Shown here in pieces: positions 54,654 through 57,651 of a stretch of DNA of 64,000 nt (position 1 is its first letter; each line of letters begins with the position of its first letter). A program made the position numbers and the translations under genes. Below the pieces are notes generated by a model that saw only the letters and a program-made list of their open reading frames with translations, had not been told where the DNA came from and did not search any database. Source of the stretch: Phormidium tenue FACHB-886 (GTDB lineage: Bacteria; Cyanobacteriota; Cyanobacteriia; Elainellales; Elainellaceae); contig NZ_JACXWX010000001.1 of assembly GCF_014764505.1 (NCBI RefSeq), positions 806,001-870,000 of the forward strand, read 5' to 3'.

Positions 54654-54844
54654 GAGATTAGCCGATGGTGTATGAGAGAAAGATGAGAGAGGCTTTCAGT
54701 GTACAAATTAGTTGACTTTGGTTGACTAATCGAGGGATCGCGCTTGTCCTTTGGATCAGATGCAGAATTACCTTTGTTTTATCTCGAATAATCTGTAATC
54801 ATCATTCTTATTACAGATTAAAAATCCTTTACTTACCCGCTGGA

Positions 54845-56293
54845 ATGTTAGACGGTTCCATCCTGCAAAAGCTCAAAGATAATCATCGCTCGCCCCATCA
54901 GCCTCATAAACGCCCGCTCAACTTTGGGGTGTATTACAAAAACACCCTGGTTGCGCTCTGCCATGCTTTGGAAGACGCGATTCTCACGGCAGACTATCAG
55001 CCCTTGATGATCACCGCCTTTCAGCGGGGCAAGTGGTATCTGGAAGAAGCCGAGCGCTACGGCGAGATTGCCGAAAAATCAGATCAAGTTGTGATCCTAG
55101 CGTCGCCAGAGGCTGGGTTTGCTGAGCATCCGACTAGCCAGAAAGCCAACGTTGCCCTGGTGAGCTTAGACAAACTTGACCCTGTTTCGCAGGAGTGGCA
55201 TTTGATCATCGTATCGCCTAACTACACAGCGATGGTGCTTTGCCAGGAGCTCTCTGATGCAGATTATGGCAGCGCTGGATTGCCCCAGCGGGATCTAGAG
55301 CGCAAGTTTTACGGCTTCTGGACGTTTGAGCCAGAGCTGGTGCTAGAAACCGCAGAATTGGCGATCGACCATGTGCAGCAATACAACCCTGACTTGCACC
55401 AGCAGCTCGCTGCCCAAGTGCAGTCTATCCGCGATCGCATCCAGCATCAGGATGCGCTGTGTGGGGCTCCAACGGCAGATCATCTCGGTGCGATCGTTTC
55501 ACGCGTGGTCAACTATCTGCAAACGAGCGAAGAGAACAGCAAATCGTTGCTGGGTGAAAACCTGGTCTCGAATGAGCTGCAGGCATTTTTGCGAGTGGCA
55601 CAGCTGATTGATCAGACAGATTTAAGCAATCCAATGGCGGCGGCAGAAGTGGCAACCCTGGCAGAAGCAATGGGGCAACTGCTAGATCTCCCGTCGTGGC
55701 AGCTCCATCGACTGCGGTTGGCAGGCTTGCTGCACCGGCTGGCATTTCTGCAAGGCGTGGGTGCGGGGCTGAGTTCGGGCACCTCTGCTCGCGTCTTTGC
55801 CGAATCCCCCGACATGCCGCTGACCTGTCCGCTGGTTCCTGGGATTCAGGTGCTGCGCCGAATGCCTCGGCTGAGAGCGATCGCTACCATCCTGACGCAC
55901 CAATGGGAGTGGTGGAACGGCACAGGGCAACCGGCAGGGCTAACAGGCGACGAAATTCCAGTTGAGTCACGTATCTTGAGCCTGATTGCTGCCTTTCAGC
56001 AGCAGGTGGCACAGCTACGCACTGAGCCAGATGGCACGCCTTCTGCTGCTCAGCCAGAACTGCTGATGCAGGCGCTGGCTGCCTGTCAGGCAGAGCAGGG
56101 CAATCAGTTTGATCCAAAGCTAGTAGAGGCGCTGGGGCTGCTGGTGTCAGCGCTGCAGCAGGGCTTGAGCTTGCCGATCGCACTACCCAAAATTGCAGCA
56201 GGACTGTGGCTGCTTGACCCTGCTTCTGAAGAAAGCTTGCAGATTGTCTTTCAAGAGGCAATCGCGGGTGCTGCCACACCTCCGCAAGACTAA
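54845..56293 (+). CDS. DICT sensor protein with degenerate HD-GYP domain
   Basis: A 482-residue cytosolic protein. Residues about 20-150 form a DICT sensory domain ('LNFGVYYKNTLVALCHALED', 'ITAFQRGKWYLEEAERYGEI' in part, 'FYGFWTFEPELV'). Residues about 250-480 look like an HD-GYP output domain: the HD dyad reads HR (His297-Arg298, 'GLLHRLAFL'), HHExxDGxGYP reads QWExWNGTGQP (Gly361-Gln362-Pro363), followed by 'GDEIPVESRILSLI'. Loss of these metal and GYP residues suggests no c-di-GMP phosphodiesterase activity. The ATG at 54845 is chosen; the frame opens at 54722. A pentapeptide protein follows after 29 bp. Confidence 0.8.
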   Translation: MLDGSILQKLKDNHRSPHQPHKRPLNFGVYYKNTLVALCHALEDAILTADYQPLMITAFQRGKWYLEEAERYGEIAEKSDQVVILASPEAGFAEHPTSQKANVALVSLDKLDPVSQEWHLIIVSPNYTAMVLCQELSDADYGSAGLPQRDLERKFYGFWTFEPELVLETAELAIDHVQQYNPDLHQQLAAQVQSIRDRIQHQDALCGAPTADHLGAIVSRVVNYLQTSEENSKSLLGENLVSNELQAFLRVAQLIDQTDLSNPMAAAEVATLAEAMGQLLDLPSWQLHRLRLAGLLHRLAFLQGVGAGLSSGTSARVFAESPDMPLTCPLVPGIQVLRRMPRLRAIATILTHQWEWWNGTGQPAGLTGDEIPVESRILSLIAAFQQQVAQLRTEPDGTPSAAQPELLMQALAACQAEQGNQFDPKLVEALGLLVSALQQGLSLPIALPKIAAGLWLLDPASEESLQIVFQEAIAGAATPPQD

Positions 56294-56322
56294 GACCATC
56301 CAGCAACCCAACGAAACCACTC

Positions 56323-56964
56323 ATGGATATTGATGCAATTCGTGCTGGCAAACTGAAGCAGCTAGCTGGCATAAATTTGGAAGACGAAGATTTATCGAAA
56401 GCAGCGCTGAGCCGCGTTAATTTGGCAGGGGCAACCCTGAATGGCGCAATACTAACAGCGGCAAACTTAAACGGCGCTACGCTAGATGGCGCTAACCTAT
56501 TAGGCTGTCAGCTGATGCGCTCTGATTTACGAGCCAGTCTACTGGGCGCCAACCTGATGCAGGCAAACTTGAGCGAAACCGATCTGCGTGGCGCTAATCT
56601 GCGTGGGGCAAACCTGATGCAGGCGCAGCTTGCTCACACCACGCTAGCAGGCGCATTTCTTAGCGGTGCCAATCTGATGGGGGTCAGCCTGCGAGGAGTT
56701 GACCTGCGTGGCGCTGACTTGCGTGGGGCAAACCTGAACGGCGCCACGCTAAGCGGGGCAAATCTGTCGCAGGCTGATCTGCAAGGCGCGATCCTGATCG
56801 AAGCCAATCTAGAAGAAGCTGACTTGCGGGGCGCTAATTTAGCAGGAGCAAATTTAACAAGAGCCAATCTGCTTTGTGCAGATTTAGAAGGCGCGAGCCT
56901 GACGGGTACAAATTTGACAGACGCTTGCGTTAAAGGAACGTTGATAGAAGCAGCGGATCAGTAA
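56323..56964 (+). CDS. Pentapeptide repeat protein
   Basis: A 213-residue protein made almost wholly of A(N/D)LxX repeats from about residue 25 to 205, some 36 units, predicted to form a right-handed quadrilateral beta-helix. The N-terminus 'MDIDAIRAGKLKQLAGINLED' (read in parts) is a short helix and cap. No signal peptide is present, so it is cytosolic. It lies 29 bp behind the DICT/HD-GYP-like gene on the same strand, so it is probably cotranscribed. Function is unknown; some pentapeptide proteins bind DNA gyrase, but most cyanobacterial ones are uncharacterised. Confidence 0.9.
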   Translation: MDIDAIRAGKLKQLAGINLEDEDLSKAALSRVNLAGATLNGAILTAANLNGATLDGANLLGCQLMRSDLRASLLGANLMQANLSETDLRGANLRGANLMQAQLAHTTLAGAFLSGANLMGVSLRGVDLRGADLRGANLNGATLSGANLSQADLQGAILIEANLEEADLRGANLAGANLTRANLLCADLEGASLTGTNLTDACVKGTLIEAADQ

Positions 56965-57135: not shown

Positions 57136-57651
57136 ATGAAGACTGCCTTAGCTAGCCTTTGTTTAGTTTTAGCTGCCTGTAGCCCGCTGTTAGCGTCTTT
57201 ACCATCGGTTGCCAGCCCACCATCAATTGAGCTGCAGCAGAATGCCGCAAATGCGCAAACTGCCGTCATTGTAATGGAACGCACGGCTTGTTTTGGGAGC
57301 TGCCCTGCTTACCGGCTGACAATTGCCGGAGATGGTCGAGTCACCTACGAAGGAATTGCCTTTGTTGCCACTCAAGGAACAAAGACCGCTCAGATCAGCC
57401 CTGAGCAAGTGGAAGATCTGGTAACCGAGTTCGAGAAAGCAAATTTCTTTCGGTTGAAGAATGAGTACACGGTAAATGTGACCGATCTACCTGGTACAAA
57501 AACCGCCATTACACTGGACGGACGCAGCAAACAAGTTTGGCACTATGGCTCAGTTGGCGATCCTAACCTAGACAATGCTCCTCCAGCCCTAAGCAGGCTA
57601 GAGGAGGCGATCGACCAAGCGGTAAATGTGAAACAGTGGGTCGGGCGCTGA
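57136..57651 (+). CDS. DUF6438 domain lipoprotein
   Basis: A 171-residue exported protein. The N-terminus 'MKTALASLCLVLAACSP' has a lipobox-like LAAC (Cys15). The mature domain has 'ERTACFGSCPAYRLTIAGDG' (read in parts), with the CxGxCP motif of DUF6438, then 'VTYEGIAFVATQG', 'LVTEFEKANFFRL' and 'VTDLPGTKTAITLDG'. Function is unknown. Cotranscription with the upstream pentapeptide gene (171 bp away) is uncertain. It converges on the CNT gene, with 38 bp between stops. Confidence 0.82.
   Translation: MKTALASLCLVLAACSPLLASLPSVASPPSIELQQNAANAQTAVIVMERTACFGSCPAYRLTIAGDGRVTYEGIAFVATQGTKTAQISPEQVEDLVTEFEKANFFRLKNEYTVNVTDLPGTKTAITLDGRSKQVWHYGSVGDPNLDNAPPALSRLEEAIDQAVNVKQWVGR

Follow-up and report, generated by a model that had tools for sequence, protein, structure and literature searches.

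A DICT sensor with a degenerate HD-GYP-fold domain is co-inherited with a pentapeptide-repeat protein in cyanobacteria

Organization of the locus

The analysed window, 64,000 nucleotides of the Phormidium tenue FACHB-886 genome (contig NZ_JACXWX010000001.1, positions 806,001 to 870,000), contains two neighbouring genes on the forward strand. The first, an open reading frame at 54845-56293, encodes a protein of 482 residues, hereafter the sensor, which consists of a DICT domain, a CHASE6_C domain and a domain with the HD-GYP fold. The second encodes a pentapeptide-repeat protein (PRP). The features are as follows.

54845..56293, + strand: DICT-CHASE6_C-pseudo-HD-GYP protein (P0001; AlphaFold2 model mc39866af7fbe)
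54899..55249, + strand: DICT domain, residues 19-135 (Pfam PF10069, 138.3 bits, cut-off 23.8)
55292..55537, + strand: CHASE6_C domain, residues 150-231 (Pfam PF17150, 86.5 bits, cut-off 27)
55559..56122, + strand: HD-GYP-like domain, residues 239-426 (Pfam HD_5, 81.4 bits, cut-off 27.2)
55733..55738, + strand: former HD dyad, now HR, residues 297-298 (R298 in 187/189 homologues, D in 0/189)
55901..55933, + strand: former HHExxDGxGYP, now QWEWWNGTGQP, residues 353-363 (189-sequence alignment)
55946..55978, + strand: GDEIPVESRIL stretch, residues 368-378 (R376 invariant)
56294..56322, + strand: intergenic gap of 29 bp, with no terminator-like or promoter-like site in it (consensus scan)
56323..56964, + strand: partner PRP, 213 residues (P0002; PF00805, 176.1 bits, cut-off 20.2)

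The AlphaFold2 model of the window's sensor had a mean pLDDT of 87.4 and a pTM of 0.84. An earlier reading of the letters (the sequence-only reading) had described the protein as a DICT sensor joined to an HD-GYP-like domain; Pfam recovered both domains, together with a CHASE6_C domain between them that this reading had missed. The motif residues it had read in place of the HD dyad and of HHExxDGxGYP were borne out, the GDEIPVESRIL stretch proved to be well kept across the sensor family in the 189-sequence alignment, the pentapeptide-repeat nature of the second protein was evident from its Pfam score, and the 29-bp distance between the two genes was exact. As the start of the sensor gene, a longer frame opening with TTG at 54722 was rejected, since the ATG at 54845 begins the ML.GSIL start that is kept in the family. 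Upstream of the pair, on the opposite strand, lies a gene for a YlqF-type GTPase. Downstream in the window we also observed a DUF6438 gene (57136-57651, 125 bits) whose product has a lipoprotein-like start.

Loss of the active site and retention of the HD-GYP fold

Residues were counted in 189 aligned sensor homologues and mapped on L221, a canonical HD-GYP protein encoded in this genome. This alignment leaves out identical sequences, the copy of the query (L084), L030, L041, L218, L219, L220 and L001-L003; L163 was left out of alignment A1. Domain conservation percentages are based on a set of 125 sensor sequences, down to 40% identity.

The HD dyad was found in none of the 189 homologues, with Arg replacing its Asp in 187. 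The HH pair of HHExxDGxGYP was likewise found in 0/189, a single His being left at position 353 or 354 in 14 sequences. Each of the two later Asp residues (D382 and D385) was absent from all 189, and position 385 was occupied by Gln throughout. No homologue had the TGDH His, with some His within residues 327-331 in 7/189, and none had the Lys of HDxGK. The first Glu position held Asp in 186 homologues and Glu in three. The Glu, TGDH His, HH and later Asp positions are those that we take to be the metal ligands of HD-GYP phosphodiesterases. An active phosphodiesterase was therefore rejected, the catalytic residues being absent in 189/189.

The fold, in turn, was retained. About residues 238-459 of the sensor matched the HD-GYP fold of c-di-GMP/cGAMP phosphodiesterases, including PA4781 (4r8z), 4mcw, V-cGAP3 (5z7c) and Bd1817 (3tm8), with Z scores (VIA-align) of 17.4 to 5z7c, 16.6 to 4mcw and 16.4 to 4r8z; the first five rows of solved HD-GYP domains against the AlphaFold2 model spanned Z 16.4-17.4 over 174-197 residues. 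The sensor family differs from these enzymes, as judged on L221, in the residues listed above. Seven residues (E355, W357, G359, G361, P363, R376 and Q385) were invariant in all 189 homologues, and Q385 is a new invariant residue of the sensor family. GYP itself was present in 18/189, and the window's protein has GQP. The claim of a degenerate HD-GYP domain with its fold kept thus held well beyond the window, and we found no homologue that keeps the catalytic HD, HH or later Asp residues.

The absence of catalytic residues could also be expected of a domain decaying on its way to loss. This explanation is highly improbable and was rejected on conservation: 43 of the 188 positions of the HD-GYP-like domain were conserved at 95% or more in the 125 sequences, a new invariant Gln has appeared, and stops inside the match were listed for only 6 of the 139 genomes with a sensor. 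With the HD-GYP fold kept and the catalytic centre lost, the domain is a conserved pseudo-enzyme, predicted from its residues to be catalytically dead throughout the family.

The sequence-only reading had further suggested that the domain persists as a c-di-GMP binding or scaffold module. A catalytically dead c-di-GMP receptor, from which the PRP would relay the second messenger, is compatible with the retained fold and with the invariant E355, G359, G361, P363 and R376, and a figure legend in PMC7063779 counts degenerate GGDEF or EAL domains among the effectors. Against it, all 189 homologues lack the HD dyad and the HH pair, the TGDH His, the Lys of HDxGK and each of the two later Asp residues; the only His found in these regions are the single ones in 14 and seven sequences noted above. 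Moreover, Asp replaces the first Glu in 186/189, R298 and Q385 take the places of canonical Asp residues, and in an 11-row alignment the sensor family did not keep the stretch of L221 that resembles RPYR. Because most of the metal-site residues are gone, the residue pattern lends the c-di-GMP binding idea no support and we consider such a receptor distinctly unlikely; a scaffold or switch appears to be the better half of the earlier suggestion.

The DICT half

DICT was the most conserved part of the sensor, with 46 of 117 positions conserved at 95% or more (125 sequences). In the whole-protein model, residues of about 19-188 superposed on NucT, TrmB and TrmBL2, which presumably have PLD-like folds, with a middling Z of about 10 (3.2-4.6 Å over 131-138 residues). 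HxKx4D is the catalytic motif of PLD enzymes. It occurred in none of the 125 sensor sequences when the first 190 residues were searched; the DICT half resembles the TrmB, TrmBL2 and NucT folds in its model and differs from PLD enzymes in the absence of this motif. As a lead from the model, the DICT half may have a PLD-like fold, and the DICT sensor region (54908-55390), in which HxKx4D is missing, may descend from a PLD-like domain.

Two other DICT proteins, L001 and L003, are encoded in the same genome. The DICT domain of L001 keeps H40 and C133 of the sensor and has Ser where all members of the sensor family have C39.

Pairing of the sensor with the PRP

The main counts come only from 242 sampled genomes of the class, taken as Cyanobacteriia; the named and unnamed sets of loci overlap. 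Per genome, the sensor search scored at most the six best candidates of a first look and the PRP search at most the twelve best, and nearly all candidates were scored in a subset of genomes only, including 12 with the sensor and 16 without it. A PRP was counted as adjacent when it lay on the same strand of the sensor's contig, less than 900 bp away; in G159 and G114, where the sensor is split over two contigs, the C-terminal piece was used. The PRP profile (A2) has 82 rows, namely the window's own PRP and 81 of the 117 PRPs adjoining a sensor, and adjacent PRPs therefore match it partly by construction. More independent evidence on the pairing is provided by 103 sensor-less genomes, seven separated pairs and nine further genomes.

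The sensor was found in 139/242 genomes among the best candidates scored. The best E-values per genome lay at about 1e-75 and then dropped straight to about 1e-38, a level at which the matches, in the genomes inspected, were DICT domains of other proteins. The 68 genomes that belong to the phylum but not to the class (68 being read from list order) yielded no sensor at E 1e-50.

A partner-level PRP (at least 194 bits) was present in 134/242 genomes, all of which carry the sensor. The two genes were adjacent on one strand in 127 of these 134, and in the remaining seven they were apart with both kept; none of the seven separated loci had contributed to the PRP profile. Among the best candidates scored (at most twelve per genome), no partner-level PRP was found in the 103 sensor-less genomes, where the top score was 163 bits. 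The hypergeometric value for co-occurrence was 4.5e-63, a figure that ignores shared descent. With nearly all candidates scored, the PRP was found in 11/12 sensor genomes and in 0/16 sensor-less ones. Each of nine further sensor genomes, taken from beyond the sample, had a PRP of at least 195.8 bits, adjacent in seven, although three of the nine (family f32) may overlap with named loci in A2. Families f5, f14, f16 and f26 include some genomes that have the sensor and some that lack it; the PRP was found in none of their 32 sensor-less genomes (best candidates scored). In many Nostoc genomes the two genes overlap by 4 bp.

Five of the 139 sensor genomes had no partner-level PRP. In G032 the PRP is cut by a contig end, in G061 the sensor itself lies at a contig end, in G111 pieces of a PRP adjoin the sensor, and in G240 the sensor is truncated; G086, a draft of 730 contigs, showed no partner PRP even with all candidates scored. 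Three sensor-less genomes of the class were also inspected beyond the sample, two of which had no partner-level PRP. The third, G304, has a borderline PRP of 194.8 bits and, in place of a full sensor, a different protein that matches in its DICT part alone; this may be another PRP, or the sensor may have been lost. In G302, another genome of this genus, a sensor occurs with a PRP of 195.8 bits that is not next to it, and the score border is accordingly not sharp in this genus.

A chance neighbourhood of the two genes was rejected on the 127/134 adjacent pairs and on the missing PRP in the 103 sensor-less genomes (best candidates scored). The sensor and the PRP are a widespread, co-inherited pair. 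The two-protein module proposed from the 29-bp gap is accordingly sound as a gene unit, 134 of the 139 sensor genomes having the PRP, and the pair is far from being rarely adjacent.

In one metagenome assembly (L030:5001-7100) the sensor and the PRP were observed in a single frame of 699 residues. A gene fusion was rejected there, as the linker is the frameshifted end of the sensor and probably stems from an error in sequencing or from a recent mutation; for the same reason this locus is not evidence for the pairing.

Conserved positions of the PRP

The 82-row profile revealed two conserved charged stretches in the PRP.

56581..56604, + strand: PRP residues 87-94, charged, with D87 and R89 (100%) and R94 (95%)
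56701..56724, + strand: PRP residues 127-134, with D127, R129, D132 and R134 (96-100%), repeating the first pattern at a distance of 40 residues

D87, R89, D127, E164 and C185 were invariant, and R94, R129, D132, R134 and E165 nearly so. The D-x-R pattern recurs after 40 residues, which, at 20 residues per helical coil, would place the copies two coils apart. These charged positions may form a docking face.

The protein shares its pentapeptide repeats with the HetL and Alr5209 families. It scored 128.3 against the HetL equivalog NF047416, well under the cut-off of 260. The score of 134.6 against the Alr5209 equivalog NF052603 (cut-off 125) was obtained from four partial matches to a repeat profile of 113 positions and probably arises through the repeats. 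The PRP has invariant positions of its own and follows the sensor gene.

It could also be that the sensor and the PRP share a transcript without touching, the PRP having its own target and the sensor acting elsewhere in the same process. On its side, a model of the two proteins fused by read-through (pTM 0.65) gives no measure of contact. We nevertheless consider this arrangement doubtful, given that both genes are kept in the seven genomes where they lie apart and that the PRP has family-specific conserved charged positions, although both facts are compatible with it. Two proteins that probably work together remain our preferred reading of the pair.

Linkage to the slr0320 orthologue

The radical-SAM neighbour of the sensor at L004 matched NF045585 (Slr0320, photosystem II high light acclimation radical SAM protein) with 1059 bits (cut-off 775); it is B12-binding. 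Orthologues of slr0320 lie upstream on the same strand at 64 of 80 named loci (67/80 by a second search), and three of the 13 loci without one (L009, L052 and L063) have less than 1 kb of upstream sequence. With adjacency taken as the same contig and strand and a gap below 2500 bp, the orthologue adjoined the sensor in 70 of the 106 genomes listed (out of 139 with the sensor), distributed over 16 families. By family, adjacency was found in 12/26 genomes of the window's own family, 0/4 of f20 and 0/2 of f23. In contrast to this frequent upstream position, the orthologue is not beside the pair in the present window: in this genome it is L223, at C1:160023-161585, about 700 kb away.

In Synechocystis, deletion of slr0320 slows electron transfer from QA to QB, and growth in strong light declines (PMC8065906). 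The frequent adjacency suggests that the process targeted by the pair is the functioning, in strong light, of photosystem II or plastoquinone. The orthologue is near-universal, however, scoring over the cut-off in 219/242 genomes; its presence or absence was rejected as a discriminator for this reason, and linkage alone does not fix the process. We must also note that the sensor and the PRP lie together in 35 of the 36 genomes without slr0320 adjacency (G159 being counted through its sensor piece), which makes these two genes the tighter unit.

The same figures bear on another explanation, namely that the pair regulates a process unrelated to photosystem II and that its adjacency to slr0320 is old synteny under separate control. 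The orthologue is much more frequent than the sensor (219 against 139 of the 242 genomes), the two can be parted, as the genome of the window shows, the sensor and the PRP stay side by side in 35 of the 36 genomes just mentioned, and other neighbours recur as well. On the other hand, short same-strand gaps to the slr0320 orthologue recur in 16 families. We regard old synteny as a serious possibility, if somewhat short of even. A role of the pair in photosynthetic acclimation can be put forward with a perhaps.

At L022 and other Nostocales loci, a CPBP-protease-like membrane protein and a ClpS-like protein, identified by sequence reading, recur downstream on the opposite strand.

Relation to previously described proteins

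A DICT-HD-GYP type of protein is already described from Microcystis aeruginosa in PMC7063779, where it is classed as a phosphodiesterase, its variant key residues are given as YR-GVP and the authors ask whether it is degenerate. This protein resembles the sensor in its N-terminal DICT domain, its HD-GYP fold and its variant key residues. The YR at its HD site also occurs in the sensor family (Y297 in 2/189), and the E and D of its EFExxDGxGVP motif fit the family as well. The putative kinship is drawn from the reported architecture and motif, and the passages of PMC7063779 consulted mention no partner PRP. In Anabaena, 16 c-di-GMP turnover proteins are counted (PMC13075795, PMC8682488); in the main-text passages of these two papers, DICT was not found as a domain name. 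A literature search on HD-GYP and pentapeptide-repeat proteins of cyanobacteria, which covered subscription papers in part, returned no report of the sensor-PRP pairing. Hence, as far as these sources go, the degenerate DICT-HD-GYP type has been noted before in Microcystis, and its pairing with a PRP was not found reported.

Proposed role of the pair

Since the sensor and the PRP are usually side by side, and often beside the slr0320 orthologue, it is probable that they act jointly in signalling, as a unit without enzymatic activity. We propose that the DICT/CHASE6_C half, with its PLD-like model and without the PLD catalytic motif, would bind a small cytosolic signal. The HD-GYP-fold half, without most of its metal site, would transmit this signal by a change of conformation, and the rod-shaped PRP would dock on the sensor, perhaps through its conserved charged positions, and carry the output to a target, which may lie in the strong-light photosystem II or plastoquinone process named above. 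In our estimation, a dedicated non-enzymatic sensor-adaptor unit of cyanobacteria, with its target process suggested by the slr0320 linkage, is evenly poised between being right and wrong. A more specific version sees a class-wide photosynthesis unit in which two pseudo-enzyme folds, the PLD-like DICT sensor and the dead HD-GYP domain, are stacked and joined by a pentapeptide rod; it would respond to a signal from the thylakoid or from a cofactor and, with the Slr0320 radical-SAM enzyme and without c-di-GMP, adjust photosystem II on its acceptor side. This version appears unlikely in its full form.

For genome censuses, the residue counts are a warning that this widespread sensor should not be counted as a c-di-GMP phosphodiesterase. 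With a PRP following this one signalling protein throughout the class, a testable partner for it is at hand, and the pair provides a lead into how acclimation of cyanobacteria to strong light may be regulated.
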